Shown here: positions 2,131 to 17,008 of the stretch, one piece after another
How positions within the stretch are numbered: position 1 is the stretch's first letter
Layout of the letters: every line of letters starts with the position of its first letter
NCBI RefSeq assembly: GCF_020381325.1
Contig: NZ_JAGSPI010000010.1
Location: 62,001 to 126,000, forward strand
Direction: 5' to 3'
Length of the DNA stretch: 64,000 nucleotides
Origin: Providencia vermicola
Lineage (GTDB): Bacteria > Pseudomonadota > Gammaproteobacteria > Enterobacterales > Enterobacteriaceae
Notes under the pieces: generated by a model
Seen by the model: the letters and a program-made list of their open reading frames with translations, nothing else
Databases searched by the model: none
What the model was told of the DNA's origin: nothing
Translations under genes and position numbers: made by a program

Positions 2131-2131
2131 A

Positions 2132-3133
2132 ATGACAAACAATGTATTTATTATTGCTGAAGCAGGTGTCAACCATAATGGTAATTTTGAACTTGCTAAA
2201 CAATTGATTGATGCTGCTGTTGATGCAGGTGTTGATGCTGTAAAGTTTCAAACGTGGAAAACCGAACTTTTAGTCACAAAAGATGCTCAAATGGCTGAGT
2301 ACCAAATAGAAAATACAAAAGTCGAAGAAACACAATTTGAAATGCTAAAGCGTTTAGAGCTGAGTTACGACGATTTCATCGAACTAAAAGAATATTGTGT
2401 CGAAAAACACATCATATTTATGTCAACACCCGATGAAGAACAAAGTGCAAACTTTCTAAATAGCTTACAAGATGTTTTTAAAATTGGGTCAGGTGAATTA
2501 ACAAATACACCTTTTTTGCGCCATATCGCTAATTTTGGTAAGCCCGTCATTTTATCTACAGGAATGGGGTATTTATCTGAAATCGAGCATGCTATTTTTA
2601 CTTTACTCAATGCTGGGTTATCACTACAACAAATCACCGTTCTTCACGCGACAACCGATTACCCAACATCTCCGGAAGATGTTAATTTACTCGCCATGAC
2701 GACGATTAAAAACGCATTTCCAGGTATCACAATCGGCTATTCCGACCATACTTTAGGTATCGAAATTCCTATTGCTGCTGTTGCACTTGGCGCTAAAGTC
2801 ATCGAGAAACATTTCACTTTAGATAAAAATATGGATGGCCCAGATCATAAGGCCAGCTTAGAACCCATTGAACTATCAAATATGGTTAAAGCTATTCGTA
2901 ATATTGAACACGCCCTTGGTACGGGTTGGAAAGTCCCCACAGAAACTGAAAAGCTAAACAGAGATATTGTTAGAAAAAGCATTATCGCTAAAAAAGTAAT
3001 CCCTCTCGGTGCTCACATCACAGAAGATATGCTTGAAATAAAACGCCCAGGAAATGGGATTCCGCCGACAAGATGGGATGAAGTTATTGGCTCGATTGCT
3101 AAAAAAGATTACCAAATCGGGGAGCTTATCTAG
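2132..3133 (+). CDS. legI: NeuB-family nonulosonic acid synthase
   Basis: A 333-residue member of the NeuB family, which condenses phosphoenolpyruvate with a 6-carbon amino sugar to form a nine-carbon nonulosonic acid. It has the N-terminal TIM-barrel signature FIIAEAGVNHNGN (residues 5-17), a VKFQTWK segment, STPDEEQSANFL, and the conserved EKHFTLDKNMDGPDH metal/PEP region near 230-245. It ends in a SAF (antifreeze-like) domain with KKVIPLGAHITEDMLEIKRPGNGI. Length is normal for the family. The start ATG lies 1 base after the upstream stop, and the TAG stop overlaps the GTG start of neuC/legG by one base. Legionaminate versus sialate specificity cannot be settled by eye; the PtmE and LegC homologues nearby favour legionaminate. 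Confidence 0.88.
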   Translation: MTNNVFIIAEAGVNHNGNFELAKQLIDAAVDAGVDAVKFQTWKTELLVTKDAQMAEYQIENTKVEETQFEMLKRLELSYDDFIELKEYCVEKHIIFMSTPDEEQSANFLNSLQDVFKIGSGELTNTPFLRHIANFGKPVILSTGMGYLSEIEHAIFTLLNAGLSLQQITVLHATTDYPTSPEDVNLLAMTTIKNAFPGITIGYSDHTLGIEIPIAAVALGAKVIEKHFTLDKNMDGPDHKASLEPIELSNMVKAIRNIEHALGTGWKVPTETEKLNRDIVRKSIIAKKVIPLGAHITEDMLEIKRPGNGIPPTRWDEVIGSIAKKDYQIGELI

Positions 3134-4305
3134 TGCGTAAAATCTGTGTAGTGACTGCAACACGAGCCGAATATGGGTTATTACGATGTCTATTAGAAGA
3201 TATACAAAATGATCCTCAGTTAGAATTGCAACTGATATCGACCGGCACACACTTATCCCCTGAATTTGATTTCACTCACAAACAGATTCTCGATGATGGC
3301 TTTAGCGTTAATAAAAAAATTGAGATCTTATTATCATCAGACTCAGCAGTTGGTGTTAGCAAAAGTATGGGGCTTGCACTCATTAGTTTTGCAGAAGCCT
3401 TTGACGAGCTAAAGCCTGATATTGTTGTCGTGCTAGGTGATAGATATGAATTAATTCCAATTGTCTCCGCAGCAAATATAGCTAAAATTCCTGTCGCTCA
3501 TCTAAGTGGTGGCGAAATAACCGAAGGTGCGATAGATGAATTAGTTCGCCACTCGATTACAAAGCTATCTCAGTTACATTTCACTGCGATGGAAGAATAC
3601 ACACATCGAGTCATACAGATGGGGGAACAACCCGAACGCGTCTTTACGGTTGGTGAAATAGGTTTAGATAACTTATTACGCATGAAATTAATGTCGCAAG
3701 TAGAGTTTGAGTCATCTATTAACTGCAAATTACTAGAGAAAAATATTCTTTTTACTTACCACCCAGAAACAACGCAAGATATCGCCGAAACAAAAAGAGA
3801 TTTTACTGAAATCTTAAACGGGTTAAGTCAGTTAGATAAAACGCTCATTATTTTTACAAAAGCCAATGCTGATGTAGGGGGAAGGCTAATCAATAAAATG
3901 ATTGATGAGTTTGTGGCTGAACACCCCAATAATGCCATTGCATTCACCTCATTAGGGCAGTTGAGATACTTATCAGCACTACAATATGTCGATGCTGTTG
4001 TTGGTAATTCATCAAGTGGCATCGTTGAAGCTCCTTCATTTAAATTAGCAACAATTAATATAGGTAACCGCCAAAGAGGTAGAGTCAGGGCACAAAGCGT
4101 CATTGATGTAAGGCCAGATACCGAACAGCTCCTCTTCGCTATAAATAAAGCCTATTCCCCCGAGTTTCACGCTATGTTGAACAATATTTGTAATCCTTAC
4201 GGACAAGGTAATAGTGCTAAACAAGTCGTAGAAATACTAAAACAAATTGACTTAAAATCACTAAAGACGAAACCATTTTATGACATCCCCTTTTGTGAAA
4301 AATAA
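3133..4305 (+). CDS. legG: NeuC/LegG-type UDP-sugar 2-epimerase (hydrolysing)
   Basis: A 390-residue protein of the hydrolysing UDP-GlcNAc 2-epimerase family. It starts with GTG (RKICVVTATRAEYGLL), the NeuC signature. It shows VVVLGDRYELIP near residue 95, the AHLSGGEITEGAIDE catalytic stretch near 120, HPET near 210, and VVGNSSSGIVEAPSF near 290, the nucleotide-binding end. NeuC makes ManNAc, while the LegG branch hydrolyses and epimerises UDP-2,4-diacetamido-trideoxyhexose to feed NeuB/LegI. The gene overlaps the NeuB stop by one base and the following ORF by 26 bases, so the unit is tightly coupled. Confidence 0.88.
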   Translation: MRKICVVTATRAEYGLLRCLLEDIQNDPQLELQLISTGTHLSPEFDFTHKQILDDGFSVNKKIEILLSSDSAVGVSKSMGLALISFAEAFDELKPDIVVVLGDRYELIPIVSAANIAKIPVAHLSGGEITEGAIDELVRHSITKLSQLHFTAMEEYTHRVIQMGEQPERVFTVGEIGLDNLLRMKLMSQVEFESSINCKLLEKNILFTYHPETTQDIAETKRDFTEILNGLSQLDKTLIIFTKANADVGGRLINKMIDEFVAEHPNNAIAFTSLGQLRYLSALQYVDAVVGNSSSGIVEAPSFKLATINIGNRQRGRVRAQSVIDVRPDTEQLLFAINKAYSPEFHAMLNNICNPYGQGNSAKQVVEILKQIDLKSLKTKPFYDIPFCEK

Positions 4306-5269
4306 ACCTATTGGTGGTGAACAAGAATTCCTTAATGATGGCTACTTTTATGGCGTAACCAATAGTGGCCGTTCATCATTGCGTTGGATAATAGAATCTA
4401 TGCAATTGCAAGGAAAAAGGGTGCTTGTTCCTGATTTTATTTGCCAAGTAGTGATTGATATTCTGAGAGAGTACAACATAGAAGCCGTCTTCTATAAAAT
4501 AAACGATAATTTTGAGTTCACTGAGCCTCCTATATCAAGGCCTATCGATGCCATTTATATTATTAGATATTTTGGGCATGACTCCGCCTCATTCCAGTCC
4601 ATTCTCACGAATTCAACATTGCCCATCATTATTGACGATGTATTTGGCACAGAAGTTCCACAAATCAAATCTGCTACTAAATGGTGCTATTTTAATAGCT
4701 TACGAAAAATATCTGCGGTTTCAGCGTTTAGTCAAACGGTATCAAATAACCCTTTACTTGATATACCAAAAGGCACGTTGCCTGCATTTTCAGATTTAAA
4801 ATATCAAGCAAAAGAAGCCAAAGCCAAATTTATTCATTCATGGGAAGGTAATGAACGCCAATACCTGACAACCTTTTCAGACGCAGAGAACTTATTAGAT
4901 AATTCAGTAGGTATATTTAGTGCTGATGATAAAAGTATTTATTTGGCCAATCAGTTCTATCGAAATTTAGCTCATACAAAAACCATTCATAAAAAGAACC
5001 TAGCGGCTGCTAAAGGCAGCTTAAGTCAGCATCAATTTGTTGATATCACACCTGAATACCCAACCTTTTTACCTCTAAGATTAAAAAATCGGGACAAAGT
5101 CCGATTAGCCTTGATGGAGCACGCTATTTACTTAGCTGTTCACTGGCCTGAAATAAAAGAAACGTCAAATGAGGTTTCGCCAAAAATACTTTCTTTACCT
5201 TTAGATGCCCGTTATACCCCTGAAGATATTCAACACTTTTGTAAGTTAATACAGAAATTTGATCAATAA
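4280..5269 (+). CDS. Divergent DegT/DnrJ-like PLP-fold protein
   Basis: A 329-residue protein with the outline of a fold-type I DegT/DnrJ/EryC1 enzyme. It has a substrate-end segment TNSGRSSLRWIIE (about residue 27), VLVPDFICQVVIDIL, IIIDDVFG where the family usually carries an EDxA motif, and YFNSLRKISAVSAF where the Schiff-base lysine is expected. The glycine-rich sequence that normally follows that lysine is missing, and the protein is shorter than canonical members (about 370-400). It overlaps the legG end by 26 bases. It may be a second, diverged aminotransferase for a modified nonulosonic acid, or a non-catalytic relative. The function is not recognised with confidence. Confidence 0.55.
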   Translation: MTSPFVKNKPIGGEQEFLNDGYFYGVTNSGRSSLRWIIESMQLQGKRVLVPDFICQVVIDILREYNIEAVFYKINDNFEFTEPPISRPIDAIYIIRYFGHDSASFQSILTNSTLPIIIDDVFGTEVPQIKSATKWCYFNSLRKISAVSAFSQTVSNNPLLDIPKGTLPAFSDLKYQAKEAKAKFIHSWEGNERQYLTTFSDAENLLDNSVGIFSADDKSIYLANQFYRNLAHTKTIHKKNLAAAKGSLSQHQFVDITPEYPTFLPLRLKNRDKVRLALMEHAIYLAVHWPEIKETSNEVSPKILSLPLDARYTPEDIQHFCKLIQKFDQ

Positions 5270-5420
5270 CCGATAATAAATATCTGATGAATAAAAGTAG
5301 TTAAACATAAAAATAGAATATATAGAAATTAAAGCAAAGTTAATCAATAAGTTATTTGGTATTTATACTATCTAAGATGACTGCACTATCACAGCTAACG
5401 ATATGTTTATGGTGAAAAGA

Positions 5421-6482
5421 ATGAGTTCTAAATGGAAAAATATTTTACTCCCCTCTTCTGCAACAATTTTAGATGCACTCGAGGTTATTAATAGAGAAGG
5501 TCTACGTATCGCTTTGGTAGCCGATGAAAATCATGGCTTAATCGGAGTAGTCGCTGATGGTGATATTCGAAGGGGTCTACTAAGTAACCTTGCCCTCACC
5601 GATTGCGTTACAAAGGTCATGAACACTAACCCGATAACAGCTGAAATCGACGCATCGAAAGAGGAATTGGCAGAATTAATGAGAACGAAGGAAATTCTTT
5701 CAATTCCTTTACTTCAAAACGGAAAAATCGTTGGTTTAGAAATATTGCAAAATGCATTAAGTAAACCTAAATATCAAAACCCCGTTTTTATCATGGCGGG
5801 TGGATTTGGGACTCGATTAAAACCACTCACCAATTCGTGCCCTAAACCAATGTTAAAAATTGGTAATAAGCCAATGTTAGAAACAATCATTCGTCATTTT
5901 ATCAAAGCGGGCTTTTCTAATTTTTATATTTCAACACATTATATGCCTGAAGTGATTCAAAATTATTTTGGTGATGGTGAAAAGTTAGGTATAAAAATTC
6001 AATATGTTTATGAAGATAAACCATTAGGTACTGGTGGAGCACTTGGCCTATTACCTGAAAATCTCCCACAAGATCTCCCGTTAATTATGATTAATGGTGA
6101 TATATTGACGACAATTGATTATCATAAACTCTTGAAATTTCATAACGATAACCAAGCTGATGCCACTATGTGTGTGCGGGAGTATTCATACCAGATACCC
6201 TATGGTGTGGTGAATAGTGAAGGGCACAAAATTACATCAATGGTAGAAAAACCAAACTATCAATACCATGTAAATGCTGGCATTTATGTGGTATCCCCAC
6301 AAGTGATTAAATCGGTAGTAAAAAACAATTATATCGACATGCCAACATTATTGAGCCAACATATTGAAAATAAGAAAAAAATTCTTATGTATCCAATTTA
6401 TGAATACTGGCTAGATATTGGTCGTTTAGATGATTTCAATAAAGCGCAAATTGATATCTATAATTTGGGTATAGGATCATGA
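5421..6482 (+). CDS. ptmE: PtmE-like CBS-domain sugar-1-phosphate nucleotidyltransferase
   Basis: Two N-terminal CBS repeats (residues about 5-115, with DGDIRRGLL and ILSIPLLQNGKIVG) are joined to an NTP-transferase domain beginning FIMAGGFGTRLKPLT near residue 127. The nucleotide-binding GGFGTRL and metal-site residues (MINGDILT) are intact. PtmE of Campylobacter, with this architecture, makes GDP-GlcNAc for the GDP-linked legionaminic acid route; its presence supports that route here. In-frame ATGs lie at 5403, 5409 and 5421. I chose 5421 because a GGTG-type ribosome-binding sequence precedes it and the protein then starts near the usual WKxIL. It overlaps the next gene by 4 bases. A gap of about 130 bases upstream may hold an internal promoter. 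Confidence 0.8.
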   Translation: MSSKWKNILLPSSATILDALEVINREGLRIALVADENHGLIGVVADGDIRRGLLSNLALTDCVTKVMNTNPITAEIDASKEELAELMRTKEILSIPLLQNGKIVGLEILQNALSKPKYQNPVFIMAGGFGTRLKPLTNSCPKPMLKIGNKPMLETIIRHFIKAGFSNFYISTHYMPEVIQNYFGDGEKLGIKIQYVYEDKPLGTGGALGLLPENLPQDLPLIMINGDILTTIDYHKLLKFHNDNQADATMCVREYSYQIPYGVVNSEGHKITSMVEKPNYQYHVNAGIYVVSPQVIKSVVKNNYIDMPTLLSQHIENKKKILMYPIYEYWLDIGRLDDFNKAQIDIYNLGIGS

Positions 6483-7177
6483 TAAATAATAAAAGAGTAA
6501 TGGCTTTCATTCCTGCCAGAGGGGGAAGCAAGCGCCTACCCCATAAAAATATTTTACCTTTAGCAGGGCAACCTTTAATTTCATGGTCAATTGAAGCGGC
6601 TCAAAAGAGCCAATATGTTGATGACATCTTTGTCAGCACAGATGACCCTGAAATTGCAAAAGTCAGCGCTGACTACAATGTAGACATCCCCGAATTAAGA
6701 CCCACATATTTAGCTACCGATGAAGCCTCAACAGATAGTGTGTTGACTTATACCTTAGATAAATTCGGTAAAGATGTTGATATCATTGTATTATTACAAC
6801 CAACATCACCATTAAGAAATGCACAACATATTGATAAAGCGTTAGAAATGTTCATCGAGAAAAATGCTTTTTCTGTCGTTTCCGTAACGCCTTGTGACCA
6901 CTCCCCATTGTGGGCCAACACACTGCCAATGAACAATTCAATGGGTGATTTTATTCGCCCTGACGCACTCAAGCGCTCACAAGACCTAAGCACATACTAC
7001 CGCATCAATGGCGCAATCTATATTTTTGATGCAAAAAAGCTAATTGAGTATGGCGAAATTCGCTATACCAATGAATCATATGCTTTTGTTATGGAGCAAA
7101 TACATTCGGTCGATATCGACCAATCTCTTGACTTCAGCTTTGCAGAGTTACTCATCAAAGAGAACAAGCATCTTTAG
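6479..7177 (+). CDS. legF: CMP-nonulosonic acid (legionaminate/sialate) cytidylyltransferase
   Basis: A 232-residue NeuA/LegF-type CMP-sugar synthetase. The mononucleotide-binding signature AFIPARGGSKRLPHKNI sits at residues 9-25, with ISWSIEAAQKS, a VSTDDPEIA segment near 50 and LLQPTSPLRNAQHI near 100. It activates the free nonulosonic acid with CTP for transfer to glycan or protein. The 4-base ATGA overlap with the ptmE-like gene makes it the last gene of the unit, and a strong terminator follows 35 bases after the stop. No glycosyltransferase that would use CMP-legionaminate lies between this gene and the next operon. Confidence 0.88.
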   Translation: MINNKRVMAFIPARGGSKRLPHKNILPLAGQPLISWSIEAAQKSQYVDDIFVSTDDPEIAKVSADYNVDIPELRPTYLATDEASTDSVLTYTLDKFGKDVDIIVLLQPTSPLRNAQHIDKALEMFIEKNAFSVVSVTPCDHSPLWANTLPMNNSMGDFIRPDALKRSQDLSTYYRINGAIYIFDAKKLIEYGEIRYTNESYAFVMEQIHSVDIDQSLDFSFAELLIKENKHL

Positions 7178-7211
7178 GGTAGCTGCCATCGCAGACGATA
7201 CTCAATGGAAT

Positions 7212-7248
7212 AAAAAAGAGATTATGTGTAAGCATAATCTCTTTTTTT
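7212..7248 (+). terminator. Rho-independent terminator after the nonulosonic acid unit
   Basis: A perfect stem of about 15 base pairs (core AGAGATTATG paired with CATAATCTCT) closes on a 6-base loop, TGTAAG, and runs into seven T residues. It lies 35 bases after the legF stop and separates this operon from the O-antigen operon. Confidence 0.9.
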
Positions 7249-7721
7249 GCCAATTTGTTTCTATTTTGCTGCAAAACATATCTGGCTAAAAAATAAACGT
7301 AAAAATTGCGTAAATTAATATTATCAATCACGTATATTATTAATCGATTTCAACGCTAAATTCGCGTAAAAAAAGGTGTATTTTATTTTTGAGTCATACA
7401 TACCCACATTAAATCTAATGATATAAAAGACTTAACTTAAGCAAAATATTTAATCACGGCACACGCGTATAATAAGAATTATAACCTGATAATTTAAAAT
7501 AACTTATTCATTTAATACTCCTATTAGGACTATTCTCTAAGACAATTGCAGTGATAGTCACTACCTAGGTTTGGTGGTATTATTAAGCGCTTTTGCTTGA
7601 CCCGATTCGCCATGAGGCATACCCTTTGGGCGGCAAAAAACAATAAGCCATGCTTATCAATTGAACGCGATAGCAAAAAATGTAACGTTTTCAATTAATA
7701 AGTATGCATTTACAATTTCAA
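7249..7721 (+). other. AT-rich intergenic region upstream of the O-antigen operon
   Basis: No convincing gene is visible in this stretch. It is very AT-rich and holds possible promoter elements: TTGACC (7597-7602) and TACCCT (7620-7625) at 17-base spacing, and an isolated TATAAT (7468-7473) without a good -35. The O-antigen operon leader must begin here because the JUMPStart element that follows acts in the untranslated leader. Confidence 0.5.
7597..7625 (+). promoter_or_regulatory. Candidate promoter of the O-antigen operon
   Basis: TTGACC, 17 bases, then TACCCT, about 100 bases before JUMPStart. The -35 matches 5 of 6 consensus positions but the -10 only about half, so this is a weak call. 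A consensus TATAAT at 7468 is the main alternative. Confidence 0.3.
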
Positions 7722-7760
7722 TGGTGCTCTGGGACCCGACAACCCAGTGCGGTAGCTATG
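7722..7760 (+). promoter_or_regulatory. JUMPStart element with ops site (RfaH recruitment)
   Basis: The sequence reads TGGTGCTCTGGGACCCGACA, continuing with AACCCAGTGCGGTAGCTATG. It aligns with the JUMPStart consensus: GTGCTCTGG at the start, AACCCAG in the middle and GCGGTAGC, the ops core, at 7749-7756. In enterobacteria, RNA polymerase pauses at ops in the non-template strand and recruits RfaH, which suppresses termination across long surface-polysaccharide operons. It lies 27 bases upstream of the first gene, as expected. The two bases after GCGGTAGC differ from E. coli ops. Confidence 0.85.
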
Positions 7761-7786
7761 GGTTGTTAACAATAATTGAACCTAAA

Positions 7787-8776
7787 ATGAAAAAAGAAAA
7801 TATACTCATTATTGGTGGCGGTAATGTTGGTCATTCACTAGCATATTGTTTATCTGATAAAGCTAATATAAGCCTGCTTGTTCGCGATAAAAAGGAATGG
7901 CATACAACGTTAAAATTCAATTTAAACGAATCTCATTCATTTAATATCTTGACTTGGGATGAAAAAATAGAAATAAATCCAAGTATAATCTTCTTAACAT
8001 TACCATTATTATATAGAGAAGATGCATTAAATAAGTTACTAAAATTACGAATTCAAAGTAGTACTATAATAGCTATTCCTGGCTATGGTGATTTTGAAGG
8101 GTTAATCTCCAGTATTAGTGGTTATGAGAAATTTAACTACGGCTCACTTCAGAGAGTCCCATATATTTGTAGAATCAAAAGATATGGAAAAGAAATTGAA
8201 ATAACTGGTTATAAAGAGAGTTTATATTTGTATATTAAAGATAAAAATAATGGACTATTAGAAAAATTATCTTATCTTTTTGGTACACCTACATACTATT
8301 TAGAGTCCCATTTACAAAATACTCTATCAAACTCTAACCCTCTTCTTCACACATCAAGACTATACTCAATCTTTGAACATGGATTAGAAAAGAAAGAAAA
8401 GATATTATTTTATGAAGAATGGGATGACCAATCGTCACACCTATTAATCAACATGGATAAAGAACTCAAGGAAATTTATAAAGCTAATAATATAGATAAT
8501 TTACATACAGATATTTTAAGCCATTATGGTGTAAGCACAGCAATAGAGTTAACAAATAAAATCAAAAGTATTAATGCATTTAAGAAAATAGAAACACCAA
8601 TGATTGAAAAAAATAAAAATCTCTATATTGCTGACCTACAATCAAGATATTTTACTGAAGATTTTGGAATTGGACTAAAGTGCATAGATAATATTGCTAT
8701 TGAATCTGGTCTAAAATTAAAATTTATACCTACTGTTTTAGGTTGGTATAATTCAATTATGAAAAAAGAGGCATAA
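7787..8776 (+). CDS. Opine (octopine/nopaline-type) dehydrogenase family protein
   Basis: A 329-residue NAD(P)-dependent enzyme with an N-terminal Rossmann motif IIGGGNVGHSLA (residues 8-19). Its C-terminal half carries the octopine-dehydrogenase-domain hallmarks SNPLLHTSRLYSIF near residue 180 and YFTEDFGIGLKCIDNIA near 290. The family reductively joins the amino group of an amino acid or amine to a 2-keto acid such as pyruvate, giving N-(1-carboxyethyl) compounds. An upstream in-frame TTG (7661) would read through JUMPStart, so the ATG at 7787 is the start. It is the first gene of the RfaH-type operon, 2 bases before the cytidylyltransferase fusion. Its amine substrate is not evident. Phosphoethanolamine, ethanolamine, lysine or alanine would each fit known Proteeae O-antigen substituents. 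The composition is AT-rich. Confidence 0.75.
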   Translation: MKKENILIIGGGNVGHSLAYCLSDKANISLLVRDKKEWHTTLKFNLNESHSFNILTWDEKIEINPSIIFLTLPLLYREDALNKLLKLRIQSSTIIAIPGYGDFEGLISSISGYEKFNYGSLQRVPYICRIKRYGKEIEITGYKESLYLYIKDKNNGLLEKLSYLFGTPTYYLESHLQNTLSNSNPLLHTSRLYSIFEHGLEKKEKILFYEEWDDQSSHLLINMDKELKEIYKANNIDNLHTDILSHYGVSTAIELTNKIKSINAFKKIETPMIEKNKNLYIADLQSRYFTEDFGIGLKCIDNIAIESGLKLKFIPTVLGWYNSIMKKEA

Positions 8777-8778
8777 TT

Positions 8779-10587
8779 ATGCAAGTTGTCATACCTGCTG
8801 CAGGAATGGGAAATAGACTCGGAAAATACACCAGTGATAAAACAAAATGTATGGTCGAGGTCCATGGTATTACACTAATTGAACGTTGTTTATCAACTCT
8901 TTCTAAATATGATGTTTCAAGAATTATACTAATAGTTGGATATCACAAGGACAAATTAAAAAAACTTTTAGGTGATAATTATAACGGCATAGAGATAGTA
9001 TACATCGATAATGATATATATGATAAGACAAATAATATATACTCAATATATCTAGCTAAAGATGAATTAATAAAAGATGATACCATTCTATTAGAAAGCG
9101 ACCTAATTTTTGAAGAAAAAATCATAGAAAACCTAGTGTCAAATCAATTTCCAAATATAGCAGTAGTTGATAAATACCAACCATGGATGGATGGTACAGT
9201 AGTTGAAATTAATAATCATTTTGATATTGTCAACTTTGTTCCGAAAAAAGACTTTGAATTTAGTAAAAGTGATTCATATTATAAAACAGTCAATATTTAT
9301 AAATTCTCTAAAAATTTTCTGAAGAATACATACGTTCCTTTTTTAGAGGCATATTCAAAAGCATTAGGTCAAAACGAGTACTATGAACAGGTATTACGTG
9401 TTATTACTCTACTAGAAACCCAAGAGCTTAAAGCGTTACCATTACAAGGTGAAAAATGGTATGAAATAGATGATGCTCAAGACCTTGATAATGCAAATGT
9501 TATTTTTGCCTCAAAAGACGAAAAATTAAACCTTCTAACTCGCCGTTATGGTGGTTATTGGCGTTATAGTGATATTATTGATTTTTGCTATCTAGTAAAT
9601 CCTTATTTCCCTAACAAAACATTTATGGGGGAGATGAAAAATTCATTTGATACGTTAGTAAGAGAGTACCCATCAGGAGCTAACGTACAATCACTTCTCG
9701 CTGCTAAAATGTTTAAATGCCACCCTGAGCAGATCGCTGTAGGTAATGGAGCAGCAGAACTAATTGATATATTAGCCCAATATAAAAATGAGAAACTAGG
9801 TTTGTTTATTCCAACGTTTGAGGAATATTCATCAAGATTTAAATCTGTAACACTTAAAAAGCTTAATAAACAAAATTTCTCCTATGATAAAAACGACATT
9901 ATTAATTTAGCTCAAGAAAATGATGGGGTTATCCTTATTAATCCTGATAACCCATCTGGAAATTTTATTCCATATCAAGATTTGTTAGAGCTAATTGATT
10001 GGTTTAAAGTAAATAAAAAAACATTTATTGTAGATGAAAGCTTTGTGGATTTCGCTGAGAATGGCTTAGACTCGACACTGATGAAAGAAGAAATTCTTAA
10101 TCTATACTCGGGATTAATTGTCATAAAAAGTATCAGTAAAAGTTATGGAGTTCCTGGAATTCGTTTAGGTGTTATAGCAAGCTCAAACATTGAATTAATT
10201 TCATTAATTAAAAAAGCAATTCCAGTATGGAATATAAATTCTTTAGGTGAGTTTTTCTTTCAAATTATTGGGAAATATGAAAAGACATATGCCAGCGCTT
10301 GTAGTCAGATAATTACTGAAAGAAACTCACTGTTTAATGCATTATCAAAAAATAAATTACTATCTCCTATTAAATCTCAAGCCAACTATATTCTATGTAA
10401 CGTTAATCTGATTCAATCTAAAGAACTTATTGAAATACTTTGTAATGAATACAATATCTTAGCAAAAGATTGTTCAGAGAAAAAAGGGTTCGATGGCCAG
10501 TCATATGTAAGGCTTGCGGTTAGAGATAGCATTGATAATCAATATTTGATCGATAGTTTACTTGAAATAGAGTCTAAGGTTGCATAA
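8779..10587 (+). CDS. Fusion: LicC-like cytidylyltransferase plus CobD/HisC-like PLP enzyme
   Basis: A 602-residue two-domain protein. Residues 1 to about 235 form a LicC/PntC-type nucleotidyltransferase: PAAGMGNRLGKYTSDKTK at 6-23 and TNNIYSIYLA, the segment typical of phosphocholine- and aminoethylphosphonate-cytidylyltransferases. Residues about 250-602 form a fold-type I PLP domain closest in motif to CobD/HisC: NPDNPSGNF, VDESFVDF (D419), SISKSYGVPGIRLG with the Schiff-base Lys454, and YVRLAVRD near the end. CobD decarboxylates phosphothreonine, while HisC-like relatives transaminate phosphorylated substrates. I infer that the PLP half makes a phospho-amine (phosphoethanolamine or serinol phosphate) and the front half converts it to a CDP derivative. 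The same architecture is known for aminoethylphosphonate activation, but no pepM or phosphonopyruvate decarboxylase gene is present. Confidence 0.75.
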   Translation: MQVVIPAAGMGNRLGKYTSDKTKCMVEVHGITLIERCLSTLSKYDVSRIILIVGYHKDKLKKLLGDNYNGIEIVYIDNDIYDKTNNIYSIYLAKDELIKDDTILLESDLIFEEKIIENLVSNQFPNIAVVDKYQPWMDGTVVEINNHFDIVNFVPKKDFEFSKSDSYYKTVNIYKFSKNFLKNTYVPFLEAYSKALGQNEYYEQVLRVITLLETQELKALPLQGEKWYEIDDAQDLDNANVIFASKDEKLNLLTRRYGGYWRYSDIIDFCYLVNPYFPNKTFMGEMKNSFDTLVREYPSGANVQSLLAAKMFKCHPEQIAVGNGAAELIDILAQYKNEKLGLFIPTFEEYSSRFKSVTLKKLNKQNFSYDKNDIINLAQENDGVILINPDNPSGNFIPYQDLLELIDWFKVNKKTFIVDESFVDFAENGLDSTLMKEEILNLYSGLIVIKSISKSYGVPGIRLGVIASSNIELISLIKKAIPVWNINSLGEFFFQIIGKYEKTYASACSQIITERNSLFNALSKNKLLSPIKSQANYILCNVNLIQSKELIEILCNEYNILAKDCSEKKGFDGQSYVRLAVRDSIDNQYLIDSLLEIESKVA

Positions 10588-10977
10588 GTGTACCGTCTAG
10601 AATTAGTTAACATTGAAAAAATTCAGATTACTGAAGAGCATATACCAGATCGTGTTGAATGGCTTGTAGAAAAAATAAAAACTGAGGCACTCTGGAGAGT
10701 GCCTTTACTTCTAGAAGAAAATTCATACGCTATTATGGATGGACACCATCGATTTGAAGTTGCAAAACTTTTGGGCTTAAAACGAATACCTTCTGTTATC
10801 CTAAGCTATGATTCTCCCTTAGTTAAGGTTGTATCTTGGCGTGATGATTTTGAAATTAACAAGAAAATAGTACAAGATTATATAAAACAGAAAAAAGTCT
10901 TTCCTCATAAAACCACCAAACACATCATTGAACCTTATCCTGATGAAATATCAATTCCTATATCATTTCTATACTAA
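10588..10977 (+). CDS. ParB/SerK/SbnI-like protein, putative free L-serine kinase
   Basis: A 129-residue single-domain protein of the ParB/sulfiredoxin fold with the nucleotide-binding motif DGHHRFEVAKLLGLKRIPSV (DGHHR at residues 51-55). Glu33 stands where SerK/SbnI carry a catalytic glutamate. SbnI of Staphylococcus and archaeal SerK are stand-alone ParB-like proteins that phosphorylate free L-serine. There is no helix-turn-helix and no CTPase-type partition context, so chromosome partitioning is unlikely. The GTG start directly follows the TAA of the fusion gene, so the two are coupled. The placement next to a CobD-like decarboxylase candidate supports a role making O-phosphoserine. This is inference from fold and context, since the family also contains other activities. 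Confidence 0.6.
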   Translation: MYRLELVNIEKIQITEEHIPDRVEWLVEKIKTEALWRVPLLLEENSYAIMDGHHRFEVAKLLGLKRIPSVILSYDSPLVKVVSWRDDFEINKKIVQDYIKQKKVFPHKTTKHIIEPYPDEISIPISFLY

Positions 10978-11001
10978 AACTCGATCCTTAAAGGTAGACA
11001 A

Positions 11002-11640
11002 GTGATTATCCAATATTTAAAAAAAATAAAAAGAAGCTTGTATTTTTACAAAAGAGCAAGAGTATTAAATAAACAAAAAAAACAGATGTTAGATAAAATT
11101 CATTTTTTTTTCAATGAAAAAAAACTAACTTACTGGCTAGAATATGGAACATTATTAGGGGCTGTAAGAAATAATAAGATTATTCCATACGATTATGATG
11201 TCGACTTAAGCCTCCTTCAATCTGAGTGGGATATTGAAATACGAAATGAATTAAGAAAATTAGGCTTCCAATTTATTAGAGAAATAGCTGTCAATAAAGT
11301 TATTTACGAAGAGTCATATAATTATAATGGAATAACAATTGATTTATTTTATTGCTCTATAGAGGATAACATAGTAAACACACCTGTATTTCGACCTTTT
11401 AAAAATATGACTTGGGATGAGTCTTTAGTACAAAAAGGGGGATTTGAACTTTATTTATTTAAAAACCCATATAATGGTGTACACGAAATACTATTTGAAA
11501 ACAAACAGTGGTATATACCTAAAAATGCTAACCTACACCTTATAAGTTATTACGGTAATAATTATATGATTCCAGAAAAAAACTGGAAGGGTGAGAATGC
11601 TGCTATTGCAATGGGCTTCGTTGGTAAAGTTAATTATTAA
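11002..11640 (+). CDS. LicD-family phosphotransferase
   Basis: A 212-residue LicD/fukutin-type protein. The signature YGTLLGAVRNNKIIPYDYDV falls at residues 48-67 (consensus GTLLGxxRxxxxIPxDxDxD), followed by ITIDLFYC near 113. LicD proteins move phosphocholine or a related phospho-group from a CDP donor to a sugar, forming a phosphodiester. It starts with GTG, preceded by an AAAGG ribosome-binding site 24 bases after the upstream gene. It is about 50 residues shorter than typical LicD, the C-terminal half is divergent, and it has a basic N-terminal helix (KKIKRSLYFYKRARVLNKQKK). It is the natural transferase for the CDP-activated product predicted for the preceding genes. Confidence 0.78.
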   Translation: MIIQYLKKIKRSLYFYKRARVLNKQKKQMLDKIHFFFNEKKLTYWLEYGTLLGAVRNNKIIPYDYDVDLSLLQSEWDIEIRNELRKLGFQFIREIAVNKVIYEESYNYNGITIDLFYCSIEDNIVNTPVFRPFKNMTWDESLVQKGGFELYLFKNPYNGVHEILFENKQWYIPKNANLHLISYYGNNYMIPEKNWKGENAAIAMGFVGKVNY

Positions 11641-11667
11641 TTATAATAATAGATATTGAAAATTATA

Positions 11668-12897
11668 ATGTTCAATAAAAAAATCGTTAGTAGTTTTTCT
11701 TATTTATCTTTAATCCAAATAATTACCTTATTAGTTCCATTCATATACTATCCATATTTAATTAGAAAATACAATATTACTGATTATGGATTAGTCATCT
11801 TTATTCAAAGTATTATTATGCTTTTAGCTATTATAGTTGATTTTGGATTTAATATTTCAGGGACTCGTAGCGCATCAGAGAATCGAGATAAAAAAACAAG
11901 ATTAAATATCATATATAGTAGTATTACGTATATAAAAATCATTTTATTCTTTATTTGCTTAATTATCTATCAGATATTTATCTTACTTAATGATAAACTA
12001 AGTGAACATTATTTATTATCCAATTTCTTATTTTTAATTGTTTTAGGAGAAGCACTATTTTCCCAGTGGTTATATTTAGGGTTAGAAAAAATAAAATTTG
12101 CTGCAATTATAAATTTATTTTCTAGGATTATGCTTCTTATCATAATTTTAATTGGAACAAATACAAATCTCGGATTTTTTTCATTTCCTTTAGCTTTAGT
12201 TCTATCATCTCTATTTAATGGTTTTATTTCTATTTATTTTGTAAGAACTAAACTTAAAGTTAAATTTGTCAAAGTATCATTCAATAGAATGAAACGAGAT
12301 CTTGTAGATTCATATTCTTTTTTACTTTCGAGATCCGTGGGTGTTATTATATTAAAATTAAACACTTATCTCATTGGTAATTATATAGGATTAGCACAAG
12401 TTGCCTATTATGATTTAGCAGAAAAACTTATTAACTTAGCATTGATGCCTTTGAATATTTTAAATCAAATTCTATACCCGCATATAGCAAGGACTAAAAA
12501 TTTTCATTTAACATTTAAAGTTATTTTTATCCTCCTCGCTATATATATAGCTATATATCCAATGGTTTTTTTGTTAGGTGAAGACATTATAATTTTATTC
12601 GCTGGTAGTGATATGCGTGAGACATTCCCATATTTACTGATTCTTTATATCATTCCCATTGCCAATATAGTTACCTATTTTTCTGGAAACTGTGCTTTAA
12701 TTTTAATTAATAAAAAGAGAGCATTTAATAATAGTATTTATTTCTCAGCCTTATTCTATTTATTAGCAATACTGTCTTTATTACTTATGGAAAACTTTAA
12801 CATTATAACACTTTGCTGGGCTCTAGTGTTAAATTCAGTGGTTACCTGCTTATATAGAGCAATTTCATGTTTTAAAAATAGAGAACTATTTATTTAA
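11668..12897 (+). CDS. wzx: O-antigen flippase
   Basis: A 409-residue polytopic inner-membrane protein with about 12 predicted hydrophobic helices. Its N-terminus is typical of Wzx/RfbX: FSYLSLIQIITLLVPFIYYP followed by LIRKYNITDYGLVIFIQS, then FGFNISGTRSASENRDKK. Wzx flips the undecaprenyl-linked repeat unit to the periplasm. A TTG at 11656 is in frame, but the ATG at 11668 gives the usual N-terminus; neither has a good ribosome-binding site. Codon use is very AT-rich, as is usual for wzx/wzy. Membership of the Wzx/Wzy pathway is confirmed by the polymerase two genes downstream. Confidence 0.88.
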   Translation: MFNKKIVSSFSYLSLIQIITLLVPFIYYPYLIRKYNITDYGLVIFIQSIIMLLAIIVDFGFNISGTRSASENRDKKTRLNIIYSSITYIKIILFFICLIIYQIFILLNDKLSEHYLLSNFLFLIVLGEALFSQWLYLGLEKIKFAAIINLFSRIMLLIIILIGTNTNLGFFSFPLALVLSSLFNGFISIYFVRTKLKVKFVKVSFNRMKRDLVDSYSFLLSRSVGVIILKLNTYLIGNYIGLAQVAYYDLAEKLINLALMPLNILNQILYPHIARTKNFHLTFKVIFILLAIYIAIYPMVFLLGEDIIILFAGSDMRETFPYLLILYIIPIANIVTYFSGNCALILINKKRAFNNSIYFSALFYLLAILSLLLMENFNIITLCWALVLNSVVTCLYRAISCFKNRELFI

Positions 12898-12925
12898 ATA
12901 ATCAATTTAGAATGGCTGTAAAATT

Positions 12926-13759
12926 ATGAATGAAAGTGAACTAGTTTCAGTTATATTACCTGTATATAATGCTGAAGAATTTCTTTATGAAGCTATTGAC
13001 TCCATCGTCAATCAGACTCATAAAAACTTACAAATAATAATAATTAACGATGGTTCGAGTGATAACTCATTAAATATCATAAATAGTTTTGTTGATGATA
13101 GAATAACTGTAATTAGTCGTGAAAACAAAGGATTAATATATACTTTAAATGAAGGTCTTAAGATAGCTAATGGAAATTATATTGCTCGAATGGATGCGGA
13201 TGATATATCTGCAAAAAACCGGATTGAGAAACAATTATCTTTTTTAAAAAAACATAAAAAGACTGGTGTAGTTGGATCTTATGTAAAAATAATAAACAAA
13301 GAAGGTACAAGGATCGCATTAAGGAAGCCTGCTAGATTTAATTTCATACTAAAAGCCACATGCTTTTTGGGAGCTCCATTTATACATCCTGCTGTCATGT
13401 TCGATAGAATTGTAGTTGGTGAAAATTTGTATTACTCTAATGAATATAAACATGCTGAAGACTATGAGCTATGGACTCGACTAGCTGCTATTAACAATAT
13501 AAAATTCTCTACAATACCCGAATATCTATTATCGTATAGAATATTGGAAACATCTATTAGCAGACAAAATAGTTTAGCTCAAAATACCACAAGGGTTAAA
13601 GCTCAAATACAAAACCTAATGGGTCATAAACATAAAAACACCGAAATAAAAGATACCAATAGTTTATATAGCATACTATTTTTACAAAGAAATAAAAAAT
13701 ACATTCCATTACAACTAATGTTCAAACTAAAATTACTTATAAGAAAAAAAACAAAATGA
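12926..13759 (+). CDS. Glycosyltransferase family 2
   Basis: A 277-residue GT-A fold transferase with the GT2 N-terminus VSVILPVYNAEEFLYEAIDS (residues 7-26), IIINDGSSDNS near 37, and the metal/nucleotide-binding ARMDADD near 88 (DxD type). HAEDYELWTRLA near 178 is the usual catalytic-base region. It would add one sugar to the O-unit on the cytoplasmic face of the membrane. It overlaps wzy by 4 bases. Donor and linkage are not predictable from sequence alone. Confidence 0.82.
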   Translation: MNESELVSVILPVYNAEEFLYEAIDSIVNQTHKNLQIIIINDGSSDNSLNIINSFVDDRITVISRENKGLIYTLNEGLKIANGNYIARMDADDISAKNRIEKQLSFLKKHKKTGVVGSYVKIINKEGTRIALRKPARFNFILKATCFLGAPFIHPAVMFDRIVVGENLYYSNEYKHAEDYELWTRLAAINNIKFSTIPEYLLSYRILETSISRQNSLAQNTTRVKAQIQNLMGHKHKNTEIKDTNSLYSILFLQRNKKYIPLQLMFKLKLLIRKKTK

Positions 13760-15018
13760 TAAAATCCGTAACATATAACATATTATTATTTTTATTTATA
13801 TTTAATATTCCTATCTATTCCTTTATCGGATCAGGGTATGTATCAGCAGCTATTTCATTATTAATTTTAGTAATCGTCCCTGGCTATTTTAAAAACTTGA
13901 TTAAGCTAATGAAAGATAAAGTAGTATTCATGATATTAATCATATATTTGATATTTTTGCTATCTACAATATCCAGCACTACATTCCATAATATTTATGA
14001 TTTTACAATTCAAAAAACCATAATTAATGGGGTGTTATCTTTCATATCATCAGTTATCTTTTCCGCTTTATTTTATTCTTACTTTAAAAATAAAACAATA
14101 GAAAGAAGTTTCTACTTTGTTTTATTAATTCAATCTTTCATAATAATATTGATGTTAGTTTCCCCAGAAATTAGAAATATGATTCAAAGTGCAATACGAT
14201 CTGATGAAGATATCGAAAAAATGGCTATATATGGTGGAGTCAGAGGATTGGGTTTATCTGACTCAGTTGCCTTTGGCTTAGCTGCTACGATGGGCTTACT
14301 TGGCTACATATTCGTTTTCTACTTAAAATCTCTTAAAGCTTTGAGCATTTATAAAATAATAATATTTCTCATGTGCTTTATCGCTGCCCTTTCTGCTGGT
14401 AGAACTTCTTTCTTAGGTTTTGTTCTAGGTATTAGCATACTAATTTTTCAATCCATCACACCAAAAACAATACTTATTTATCTTAAATACTCAATTCTAA
14501 GCACCTTAGTTTGTATTATTACATATTTTATTCTAATTAACCTACCATCCATTGGTTCAACTATACAAAGTTACTCTGCCTACGCATTTCAACCAATTAT
14601 TAATTATATCGAGTATGGAAGCTTCTCTGTATCCTCTACTGAAAGACTACAAAGTATGTATTTTCTTCCAGATAATGCTACCACTATATTTTTTGGCGAT
14701 GGGAAATATACAAATAGCGATGGGACATACTATATGCATACTGACTCTGGTTACATGCGATTTATGCTTTACTTCGGAGTACTAGGGAGCTTAATACCTT
14801 ATACAGCTTTTATATTCTTTTTATATTACACGGTCAGTAGAATAAAGGGTAAAAATAAATCTTTTTTTGTGGGGATAATAATTCTATCTTTTATATATCA
14901 TTATAAAGGTGAAATAGTATTCTTCAATGTTAATTATATGAAAATTATTTTCTTACTTTCTCTTACCTATATATTAATTAATAAAATGAATTATTTTGAA
15001 GAGAAGCGGGAAGTTTAA
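13756..15018 (+). CDS. wzy: O-antigen polymerase
   Basis: A 420-residue, very hydrophobic protein with about 11-12 membrane spans and a large central periplasmic loop (about residues 255-335, including SVSSTERLQSMYF and FFGDGKYTNSDG), the standard Wzy layout. Wzy joins O-units into a chain in the periplasm. There is no strong sequence signature, which is normal for the family. The call rests on topology, the loop motif and position in the wzx-containing operon. Wzx and WaaL in the window are accounted for by better matches. Confidence 0.82.
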   Translation: MIKSVTYNILLFLFIFNIPIYSFIGSGYVSAAISLLILVIVPGYFKNLIKLMKDKVVFMILIIYLIFLLSTISSTTFHNIYDFTIQKTIINGVLSFISSVIFSALFYSYFKNKTIERSFYFVLLIQSFIIILMLVSPEIRNMIQSAIRSDEDIEKMAIYGGVRGLGLSDSVAFGLAATMGLLGYIFVFYLKSLKALSIYKIIIFLMCFIAALSAGRTSFLGFVLGISILIFQSITPKTILIYLKYSILSTLVCIITYFILINLPSIGSTIQSYSAYAFQPIINYIEYGSFSVSSTERLQSMYFLPDNATTIFFGDGKYTNSDGTYYMHTDSGYMRFMLYFGVLGSLIPYTAFIFFLYYTVSRIKGKNKSFFVGIIILSFIYHYKGEIVFFNVNYMKIIFLLSLTYILINKMNYFEEKREV

Positions 15019-15019
15019 A

Positions 15020-15838
15020 ATGAAACTAGACATGTTATATTCCACTTATGAGGATAGAATTTACTCCTTGATTGAAAAGCTACCATTACCAAATAGCTCT
15101 GTTAACATAATAATTGTTCATCAAATGAATATAAATAGTAACTATGACTATATAATAAAACAGTTATTAGAAACGAGAAACGATATAAAATATTATAAGT
15201 CACTCACAAAAGGTGTTACCAAAAGTAGAAATATAGCACTAAAGAACGCCACAGGAGACATTGTTTTATTTTGTGATGACGATGTAACTTATAAAAAAGA
15301 TATTCAAGAAATAATAATTGAGCAATATAGAAAAACCCCCGACATAGGATTCATTACTTTCGCTTATAGCAATCAACTCGACATGCAAAATGCCGCAAAA
15401 AAATTTCATTCTTCCAGTTTCAAGCATAACCTAAAAACAATTTTAAGAGTTGGAACAATAGAAGTAACTGTCCGCAGAGAACCAATTATAAAAAATAACG
15501 TATGTTTCCCTGAAGATATGGGGGCAGGTACAACATATTTTTTATGTGACGAACCTGTTTTTTTATCTAAGTTATTAAAAAACAGTATAAATGGGATATA
15601 TAAACCTTTAATTATTGGTTACCACCCTGCGGAATCTAGCGGCCAAACATTTAGTAGAAAAGAGGCTTTCGCCTCAAGATATTTATGTTTCACTCGAATT
15701 TTTGGGTTATTTTTTGGATTCGGCCTTTATTACCTTTATTTAGTAAAAAATCTAAATAAATTTAAAACTATTAATAACTTCAATGATGCACTTTTTATTA
15801 TGTTTAAAATTAAACATAATAAAAAGTATAAGGACTAA
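15020..15838 (+). CDS. GT-A fold glycosyltransferase (family 2-like)
   Basis: A 272-residue protein. The start at 15020 (MKLDMLYSTYEDRIYSL) is chosen over a TTG at 14996, which would overlap wzy by 23 bases; a GGGAAG ribosome-binding sequence precedes 15020. The N-terminal YSTYEDRIYSL and NIIIVHQMN resemble the first strands of GT2/GT-A enzymes, and KGVTKSRNIALKNATGDIVL is the usual substrate-binding segment. FCDDDVTY supplies the acidic metal motif. The C-terminus has an amphipathic or hydrophobic segment (FGLFFGFGLYYLYLV) that may anchor it to the membrane. It is likely the second O-unit sugar transferase in this operon. Confidence 0.75.
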   Translation: MKLDMLYSTYEDRIYSLIEKLPLPNSSVNIIIVHQMNINSNYDYIIKQLLETRNDIKYYKSLTKGVTKSRNIALKNATGDIVLFCDDDVTYKKDIQEIIIEQYRKTPDIGFITFAYSNQLDMQNAAKKFHSSSFKHNLKTILRVGTIEVTVRREPIIKNNVCFPEDMGAGTTYFLCDEPVFLSKLLKNSINGIYKPLIIGYHPAESSGQTFSRKEAFASRYLCFTRIFGLFFGFGLYYLYLVKNLNKFKTINNFNDALFIMFKIKHNKKYKD

Positions 15839-15841
15839 ACT

Positions 15842-17008
15842 TTGAAAATAGCAATCGCAGGGACTGGCTACGTCGGTCTATCTAACGCCATGTTACTGTC
15901 ACAACACCACGAAGTGGTTGCGGTGGACATCATTCCCGAAAAAGTGGCGATGTTGAACAACCACCAATCACCGATTGTCGACACGGAGATTGAACAGTTT
16001 TTAACGGAAAAAACACTGAATTTCCGCGCCACAGAAGATAAAGTGGACGCTTATACGGGGGCGCAGTACGTGATTGTTGCGACGCCAACAGACTACGACC
16101 CAAAAACCAACTATTTCAATACCAAATCGGTGGAATCGGTTATTCACGATGTGAATGAAATCAACCCAACTGCGACGATTATCGTAAAATCGACCATTCC
16201 TGTTGGGTTTACCGCACGTTTACGAGAAGAATTTGGCTACACTAACGTGATTTTCTCCCCCGAATTTCTACGTGAAGGCCGTGCATTGTGGGATAATCTC
16301 CACCCGTCCCGCATTGTGGTCGGTGAGCGCTCTGAACGCGCGCAAATTTTTGCCGATTTGTTGCTGGAAGGTGCCATCAAAAAAGACGTTCCCGTGTTAT
16401 TCACGGATGGAACTGAAGCCGAAGCCATTAAGTTGTTTGCGAACACTTACTTAGCAATGCGCGTCGCGTATTTTAATGAGCTGGATACTTACGCAGAAAG
16501 CCGTGGTTTAAATGCACGCCAAATTATTGAGGGAGTCTCCTTAGACCCCCGTATTGGCAGCCATTATAACAACCCATCATTCGGTTACGGCGGTTATTGT
16601 TTACCGAAAGATACCAAACAATTGCTCGCCAACTACGATGACGTCCCGAATAACCTGATTAATGCGATTGTTGAATCCAACCGTACCCGTAAGGATTTCA
16701 TTTCGGACGCAATTATTGCTAAAGCGCCACGTAAAGTGGGGGTTTATCGCTTAGTGATGAAAGCGGGTTCAGATAACTTCCGCGCCTCTGCGGTACAGGG
16801 CATCATGAAGCGCATCAAAGCCAAAGGTATTGAAGTGGTGGTGTATGAGCCTGTCATGAAAGAAACCGAGTTTTTCCGCTCAAAAGTGGTCAATGACTTA
16901 GCGGAATTTAAAGCCCAGTGTGACATCATTTTAGCCAACCGTATGGTGCCTGAAATCGAAGATGTGGCCGATAAAGTGTATACTCGGGATTTATTTGGTA
17001 ATGACTAA
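15842..17008 (+). CDS. ugd: UDP-glucose 6-dehydrogenase
   Basis: A 388-residue enzyme that oxidises UDP-glucose to UDP-glucuronate with two NAD. It shows the Rossmann motif [11 protein letters not shown] (residues 4-14), [17 protein letters not shown] near 138, and the catalytic cysteine in [14 protein letters not shown] near 253. It starts with TTG, preceded by AAGGA, as the aligned E. coli protein begins at the same point. Base composition is abruptly less AT-rich than the genes on either side. It provides UDP-GlcA for the O-unit and possibly for Ara4N or uronic acids of the core. Confidence 0.95.

Follow-up and report, generated by a model that had tools for sequence, protein, structure and literature searches.

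A gene cassette at a surface-glycan locus of Providencia vermicola, predicted to make and attach N-(1-carboxyethyl)ethanolamine phosphate

Four contiguous genes lie within a surface-glycan locus of Providencia vermicola, in the 64-kb stretch of contig NZ_JAGSPI010000010.1 that was analysed here and is referred to below as the window. All four are on the plus strand, with spacers of 2, 0 and 24 bases in the list of open reading frames (ORFs), and sequence searches of Pfam and the PDB bear out the family to which the original prediction had assigned each of them, both through the family match and through the catalytic residues. With a putative regulatory element, the features are:

7749..7756, plus strand: ops-like element GCGGTAGC before the operon (motif count, place before the first gene)
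7787..8776, plus strand: octopine/opine-type dehydrogenase, ODH (ORF list, Pfam, PDB)
8779..10587, plus strand: fusion of a LicC-like cytidylyltransferase and a CobD-like pyridoxal phosphate (PLP) enzyme (Pfam, PDB)
8779..9516, plus strand: N-terminal half of the fusion, LicC-like CTP:phosphoamine cytidylyltransferase (nearest PDB entry LicC 1jyk, 7.4e-12)
9520..10587, plus strand: C-terminal half of the fusion, PLP enzyme, predicted phosphoserine decarboxylase (nearest PDB entry 6oux, 6e-37; CobD 1lc5, 4e-18)
10588..10977, plus strand: shortened ParB/SerK-like (SerK/SbnI-like) protein of 129 amino acids with a GTG start, predicted to make O-phosphoserine (PDB 5x0b)
11002..11640, plus strand: LicD family phosphotransferase, predicted to transfer a phospho-amine from cytidine diphosphate (CDP) to a glycan (Pfam LicD)

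The ODH begins with the ATG at 7787; a longer ORF starting with TTG at 7661 is unnecessary, and the relative in P. rettgeri RB151 (locus L004) has a methionine at the matching place. The protein matches Pfam Octopine_DH at 3.7e-24 (85.9 bits, against a curated cut-off of 30), and its nearest PDB entry by sequence is octopine dehydrogenase 3c7a (2.6e-12). In the alignment with 3c7a, H212, R324 and D329 of octopine dehydrogenase, which we take to be its catalytic residues, fall on H188, R287 and D292 of the window protein, and these are invariant in all 41 ODHs aligned (that of the window and 40 from other loci). When 61 ODHs are placed on a tree, that of the window joins a starred set of 11, all of them associated with the fusion, but it does so on a long branch that draws a warning from the program.

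The fusion protein matches Pfam NTP_transf_3 (5e-9) and Aminotran_1_2 (1e-24). The closest solved relative of its PLP half, 6oux, is labelled ‘threonine phosphate decarboxylase-like’ and is presumably the phosphoserine decarboxylase SMUL_1544. In the alignment with CobD, K454 of the fusion takes the place of the PLP lysine, K216, and R578 that of R337 (numbers counted by hand); both are present in 81 of 81 fusions, as are NPDNP, SISKS and W484/N485/N487. Conservation in the LicC-like half is equally tight, with N85, N86, I87 and S89 kept in 81/81 and Y88 in 80/81. These residues form the NNIYS of the window protein, of the same NNxYS type as the NNFYS of LicC; at this place the phosphonate enzyme 6pd1 carries GSMGT.

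The small protein following the fusion gives a Pfam ParB_N match of 6.7e-5 (23.3 bits, under the cut-off of 26.3), and its best PDB match is the free serine kinase 5x0b (3.3e-14), over the DGHHR region and a C-terminal KTT.H segment. It thus matches both ends of the archaeal kinase, the middle part being absent. E16, D51 and the KTT.H segment align with 5x0b, where we take E30 and D69 to be the active-site Glu and Asp of the Thermococcus enzyme (Tk-SerK); E16 and D51 are invariant in four of four sequences and are kept in four further proteins from loci L120 to L123. TK0378 phosphorylates free serine according to the available text of PMC5120207, in which Tk-SerK accepts serine specifically and not threonine. 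The gene adjoins the fusion in the window, in P. rettgeri RB151, in Photorhabdus akhurstii (L005) and in Vibrio (L006). Loci L120 to L123, from another genus of the same family, pair a 131-amino acid SerK-like protein (1.3e-17 to 2.6e-18) with a fusion that is 32–33% identical, in a cluster in which no glycan gene was recognised; because the two contexts have only the SerK-like kinase and the fusion in common, the kinase probably feeds the fusion.

LicD is identified by its Pfam match (2.4e-12, 47.8 bits against a cut-off of 22.6, over 38 residues) and by the motif GTLLGAVRNNKIIPYDYDVDLSL, with D-x-D in the YDYDVD of its translation. On LicD, the four-gene cassette of the original prediction needs a correction. 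P. rettgeri RB151 is the nearest named relative, with a fusion, ODH and small protein that are 92%, 81% and 91% identical, and at the DNA level it is 84% identical to the window over 7310–10977, a stretch that takes in the ops-like site, ODH, fusion and SerK-like gene. The similarity stops at LicD and resumes at wza (17839 on), and RB151 carries a different LicD, placed after wzx, so the unit common to the two is of three genes. Even within these, the SerK-like gene is optional, accompanying 3 of the 80 fusion loci considered next (one-sequence search): P. akhurstii has it with the fusion and a different reductase in place of ODH, and Vibrio has the fusion and SerK-like gene with neither reductase. 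The wzx-like gene after the RB151 cassette (L004 12201–13429) reads as two ORFs.

The search for co-occurrence that the original prediction had called for was made on the best 80 of 428 relatives of the fusion found in genome contigs, using ODH and reductase profiles that were built on the loci themselves, so that members' E-values are favourable by construction. An ODH lies within 1.6 kb of the fusion in 44 of the 80 loci, a limit chosen after five ODHs had been seen at 1.42–1.47 kb; a search with one ODH sequence places it within 200 bp in 38 (35 downstream and 3 upstream, one of the latter on the opposite strand). In another 23 loci, that of P. akhurstii among them, there is instead, always within 61 bp, a member of the ornithine cyclodeaminase/mu-crystallin family (OCD). 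No locus has both, 13 have neither, and one or other reductase is thus near the fusion in 67/80. For seven of the 13 (L046, L047, L058, L063, L068, L078 and L081) the sequence to one or both sides is shorter than 5 kb. Lifting the distance limit over all 1,458,294 bases raises the ODH count to 45, through one gene 5.4 kb from the fusion (L075), and leaves OCD at 23, one copy each and none with both. Fisher's exact test gives p 3.4e-11 for the exclusion, relatedness being ignored. Neighbour clustering, covering 77 of the 80 loci (without L056, L069 and L081, all three of which are in the profile counts), placed the second neighbour family mostly at position +1 of the fusion. One of its members (L019) was scanned against Pfam, NCBIfam and the PDB: it matches OCD_Mu_crystall (1.3e-27), and among its solved relatives are an ornithine cyclodeaminase-family protein, pyrroline-2-carboxylate reductase, alanine dehydrogenase, a mu-crystallin homologue and iminosuccinate reductase. 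LicD is found within 5 kb of the fusion in 47/80 loci.

A quick tree (LG+G4, without bootstrap) was made of 81 fusions; 68 of its rows carry an ODH or OCD label, and the label switches on it 15 times or more, so the exclusion is not the result of one ancient split. With the window ODH as query at E 1e-10, three whole genomes with an OCD locus (those of L008, L083 and L052) have no ODH, and a genome with an ODH locus (L029) has one. ODH and OCD are unrelated to each other, and since imine or amino-acid redox chemistry is known from both families, the conserved step is probably the reduction of an imine on the amine product of the fusion. The mutual exclusion, and the repeated replacement of ODH by OCD beside the fusion, are the new observations here.

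Three pairs of loci show the replacement, two of them (L051/L056 and L055/L066) closely similar. L055 (ODH) and L066 (OCD) are 88% identical through the fusion, upstream comparison being ended by a contig end; after it comes one swapped gene and then 94.5% identity over 9 kb, including LicD and a gene that by eye is wzx-like. L050 and L065 follow the same pattern (82–86% on the near side and 79–85% beyond; the ODH locus shows a gap of about 2 kb). L051 (OCD) and L056 (ODH) are 93.7–98% identical over most of 1272–9662 and 97.6% through the fusion, past which about 1 kb is unmatched before 95.7% identity returns for one gene and then gives way to divergent sequence. Isolate genomes, too, have either ODH (for example L017, L029 and L049) or OCD (L008, L052 and L083) beside the fusion. 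The simplest reading of these gene arrangements is that ODH and OCD would share one amine substrate, the product of the fusion.

The reverse search, with the window ODH against 393 Bacteroidales genomes, found matches in 12, among them the search centre (G783), which holds L029. Five of the other 11 match at E ≤1e-27, and in three of these (G826, G802 and G1050) the gene is beside a fusion, which in G1050 reads as two ORFs. Six further ODHs, at E 2.6e-17 to 4.4e-13, have no fusion in the stretches examined. At locus L111 (7503–9453) the fusion is present as two adjacent ORFs ahead of ODH, reflecting either a split gene or a sequencing error. Within the genus, 5 of 24 genomes have an ODH match, two of them strong: the genome under study and G398 (81%, with coordinates that agree with those of L004).

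Taken together, we put at about 0.72 the probability that the cassette is a surface-glycan decoration pathway running from serine through phosphoserine, ethanolamine phosphate and CDP-ethanolamine to an N-(1-carboxyethyl) derivative that is placed on the glycan, every substrate and product being predicted from the observed genes, families, residues, linkage and mutual exclusion. The same serine-to-CDP-ethanolamine route with added carboxyethyl group had been put forward originally, and residues, families and comparative genomics leave it as the best reading. The SerK-like protein would phosphorylate free L-serine to O-phosphoserine, the PLP half of the fusion would decarboxylate this to ethanolamine phosphate, and the LicC-like half would convert the latter, with cytidine triphosphate (CTP), to CDP-ethanolamine. 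ODH would join the amine to a 2-oxo acid, most likely pyruvate, and reduce the imine with NAD(P)H to give N-(1-carboxyethyl)ethanolamine phosphate; its substrate could be ethanolamine phosphate or CDP-ethanolamine, placing the step before or after cytidylylation, and N-alkylation would follow decarboxylation because a secondary amine is unable to form the PLP aldimine. LicD would then move the phospho-amine from its CDP carrier onto one of the sugars in the repeat unit. Elsewhere among bacteria the OCD-type reductase would take the place of ODH, presumably with other stereochemistry or another oxo acid, and where the optional SerK-like gene is missing, the ordinary serine pathway could supply the phosphoserine. 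We know of no member of the ODH or OCD family with ethanolamine phosphate or CDP-ethanolamine as its substrate.

The proposed product does exist in nature. The original prediction had pointed to carboxyethylamino-ethyl phosphate substituents in Proteeae O-antigens; the bearer is probably Proteus mirabilis, serotype O14. The glossary of PMC9630907, and its legend to a figure of P. mirabilis O-polysaccharides and Klebsiella pneumoniae capsules, name R-Cet-EtnP, N-[(R)-1-carboxyethyl]ethanolamine phosphate, as a glycan constituent.

A number of results weigh against this pathway. The PLP half scores 168.4 bits with the NCBIfam CobD equivalog, not reaching the cut-off of 290.55, and resembles HisC as well; by these scores it is related to CobD and is not CobD itself. 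The small protein matches NCBIfam SerK at 2.8e-19 but with 69.2 bits against a cut-off of 380 (best stretch 6–88), and it is because this score is so far under the cut-off that we call it SerK-like and not SerK. It is half the length of SerK, its AlphaFold2 model, built from four sequences only, has a mean confidence (pLDDT) of 41.6, and its gene, as noted, is rare beside the fusion. The LicD profile has no match in 30 of the 80 loci, just 9 of which are stretches shorter than 10.2 kb. The replacement pairs are all contigs of metagenome-assembled genomes, in which chimeras are possible in principle, and in the case of L051 and L056 the downstream likeness extends for just 1.1 kb, with no LicD match in L056. 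Two of the five close Bacteroidales ODHs, in G1077 and in G978 (on a 7.2-kb contig), have no adjoining fusion. Finally, some relatives may use a phosphonate, given PEP-mutase-like ORFs in 2 of the 80 loci.

Which amine is made, and whether ODH acts on it, are the points on which other explanations differ. The fusion and LicD might add plain ethanolamine phosphate to the glycan while ODH makes another opine, alanopine or N-(1-carboxyethyl)lysine for instance, which would be joined independently to one of its uronic acids or amino sugars. N-epsilon-(1-carboxyethyl)-L-lysine in the O-antigen of P. rustigianii O14 and alanopine in that of P. alcalifaciens O35 (PMC10609480, available in part) give this some precedent, and ugd, recognised by eye in the locus, would supply a uronic acid. 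We nonetheless consider it unlikely: no amide-forming gene was recognised in 11656–17776 (by eye, with three ORFs scanned against Pfam), and a separate opine would not explain why ODH and OCD are tied to the fusion across phyla, with never both at one locus. Alternatively, the PLP half might be an aminotransferase acting on dihydroxyacetone phosphate to give serinol phosphate, like Cj1437, or a threonine-phosphate decarboxylase giving 1-aminopropan-2-ol phosphate, and the tag would be some other phospho-amine. The half does match both HisC and CobD profiles, and in the available text of PMC11800397 Cj1437 and Cj1436 both serve the Campylobacter jejuni capsule. The SerK-like neighbour, however, indicates phosphoserine, given the serine specificity of Tk-SerK (PMC5120207), although with SerK beside few fusions this argument is weaker for the others. 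Together with the match to 6oux, presumably a phosphoserine decarboxylase, it leaves a different phospho-amine with little probability.

A phosphonate would alter the chemistry more deeply, the fusion taking phosphonoalanine to aminoethylphosphonate and on to CMP-aminoethylphosphonate in the manner of PntC-type or FrbH-type enzymes. In its favour are relatives of the fusion: distant ones occur in phosphonate-like clusters, in Bradyrhizobium with aepX and in Priestia with an extra DXR gene, and the two loci with ORFs resembling phosphoenolpyruvate (PEP) mutase have these close to the fusion (L036 10161–11024, 1.7e-37; L064 12921–14222, 5e-27), where a carboxyalkylated aminoethylphosphonate could be an alternative product. 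For the P. vermicola cassette we judge it highly improbable. The product of SerK is a phosphate ester, the cytidylyltransferase motif is that of LicC and not the GSMGT of 6pd1, and the window contains no PEP mutase. We rejected a phosphonate route for this genome because it has no PEP mutase over the cut-off, the best match scoring 120.9 bits against 319.55, with Escherichia coli also sub-threshold.

The fusion may be viewed as a CDP-ethanolamine hub with plug-in N-tailoring enzymes. In Bacteroidota and Gammaproteobacteria, exchange of ODH for OCD, a single gene at a fixed place, would then switch the tag between (R) and (S) stereoisomers or from one oxo acid to another, and non-homologous enzymes would bring about an antigenic switch. 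We offer this idea tentatively, at somewhat less than even odds. The repeated replacement itself points to one-gene exchange as a way in which bacteria, many of them known from gut metagenomes, may vary their surface chemistry. In more distant kin the tailoring enzymes are perhaps methyl- or formyltransferases and an N-hydroxylase.

Loci L120 to L123 contain a five-gene set around the SerK-like and fusion genes (L120 4766–10147, L121 7234–12657, L122 7555–12976, L123 5411–10832), in the order major facilitator superfamily exporter, SerK-like protein, flavoprotein resembling Lys/Orn monooxygenases, fusion and formyltransferase. Domains were scanned in L123, where the Lys/Orn-monooxygenase-like Pfam match (3e-4) is slightly under the cut-off. 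N-formyl-N-hydroxy-aminoethyl phosphate would fit these genes as product and may be what they make. This compound is the phosphate analogue of fosmidomycin that goes by the name of fosfoxacin.

Six distant loci (L124 to L129) have neither ODH nor OCD by profile. In Fusobacterium vincentii (L124 2023–7869) a fusion with 47% identity is preceded by a formyltransferase-like gene and followed by a DUF1015 gene, with LicD nearby. A plasmid of Gloeothece (L126 4977–8439) has a 35% identical fusion followed by an S-adenosylmethionine-dependent methyltransferase and LicD, among glycosyltransferases, a set that would perhaps make a methylated ethanolamine or choline phosphate tag. The distant fusion of the Priestia megaterium plasmid pBM700 (L125 4240–8638) lies beside an AAC(3)-family acetyltransferase, ATP-grasp genes and the extra DXR gene, and by analogy the set looks like a DXR-inhibitor cluster. 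Bradyrhizobium carries the halves of the fusion as separate genes with aepX and a CDP-alcohol transferase; Erwinia and Rahnella have a distant fusion with a CDP-alcohol transferase, and in Pseudonocardia a LicD-like gene adjoins it. The gene contexts of these distant loci suggest a hub with variable nitrogen tailoring. Plasmids account for 26 records with distant fusion relatives, seven of which (H1 to H7) were looked at in detail, and phage records for four partial matches of 27–28% to the PLP half, in unannotated Listeria records. Closer to home, the 4.24-Mb assembly has one full-length fusion and two extra weak matches to the PLP half only; class-wide, this is the one genome in 369 with the fusion, and likewise with the SerK-like gene, and family-wide 5 of 392 have the fusion. 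No DNA match to 7787–10974 was found in E. coli complete genomes.

The surroundings fit a surface-glycan locus, as the original prediction had it. Downstream are wzx and glycosyltransferases (Pfam) and, further on, a wzy-like gene, ugd, wza-wzb-wzc, galE, trmL and cysE, named from their translations by eye. That the glycan is an O-antigen is less secure, a capsule also being possible as wza, wzb and wzc are present. The element GCGGTAGC, which we take to be the ops/RfaH core, occurs once in the window with 0.71 copies expected by chance, so that only its position before the first gene counts in its favour. Inspection by eye of the ORFs in the list for 1–24000 revealed no choline kinase or uptake gene. 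Upstream, at 164–7177, are NeuB-like, NeuC-like, CBS-nucleotidyltransferase and CMP-acylneuraminate-synthetase-like genes, several named by eye, and their families fit a block as for legionaminic-type nonulosonic acid synthesis.

Among the matches listed in the open-access literature, outside which most subscription journals lie, no description of such a pathway was found. The available parts of PMC6801904 and PMC8649690 contain nothing on it, and a literature link between ‘opine dehydrogenase’ and ‘O-antigen’ was set aside as, so far as its accessible text goes, it concerns a siderophore island. A survey of 60 Proteus O clusters treats sugar genes, its available main text not containing ‘ethanolamine’, ‘LicD’ or ‘cytidylyltransferase’ (PMC5560731), and in the accessible part of PMC6461909 the SMUL_1544 paper figures as a title in the reference list only. 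The cassette would supply all the genes, in a form open to testing, for a glycan substituent otherwise known to us as a structure alone. It suggests how bacteria might go from serine to CDP-ethanolamine when building surface glycans, and adds an opine-type reductive step to glycan decoration.

Several known systems lie close to this route. LicC and LicD decorate surfaces with phosphocholine in the lic1 system of Haemophilus and in pneumococci, and a LicC-type CTP:phospho-amine cytidylyltransferase and a LicD are common to these systems and ours; here, in contrast, a fused PLP decarboxylase is predicted to make the amine phosphate from serine, and there is a reductase in addition. Octopine and other opine dehydrogenases, OCD-family ketimine reductases and SbnB carry out reductive N-alkylation or imine reduction. 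The window ODH shares the family profile and H-R-D residues of the first, and the locus OCD (L019 scanned) the family profile of the others, whereas the amine predicted here is ethanolamine phosphate or CDP-ethanolamine. With SerK of Thermococcus and SbnI of Staphylococcus the small protein has in common the DGHHR core, and with SerK the C-terminal K-T-T-x-H segment, in 129 amino acids compared with their ~242–256. SMUL_1544 is reportedly a phosphoserine decarboxylase of norcobamide synthesis that gives ethanolamine phosphate. FrbH, from FR-900098 synthesis, is likewise said to fuse a cytidylyltransferase to a PLP decarboxylase in one protein, with later modification of the nitrogen on the CMP-bound amine; its substrate is a phosphonate and its end product a secreted antibiotic, whereas here the destination would be a glycan. 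Cj1436 of the C. jejuni HS:2 capsule, also a PLP enzyme, converts L-serine-phosphate to ethanolamine-P for a surface polysaccharide (PMC11800397, available text). There the ethanolamine-P is amide-linked to glucuronate and then dephosphorylated, while in P. vermicola activation with CDP by the same polypeptide and transfer as a phosphodiester are predicted. The end product would be the same as R-Cet-EtnP, which is described as a structure alone and for which the cassette now offers candidate genes.

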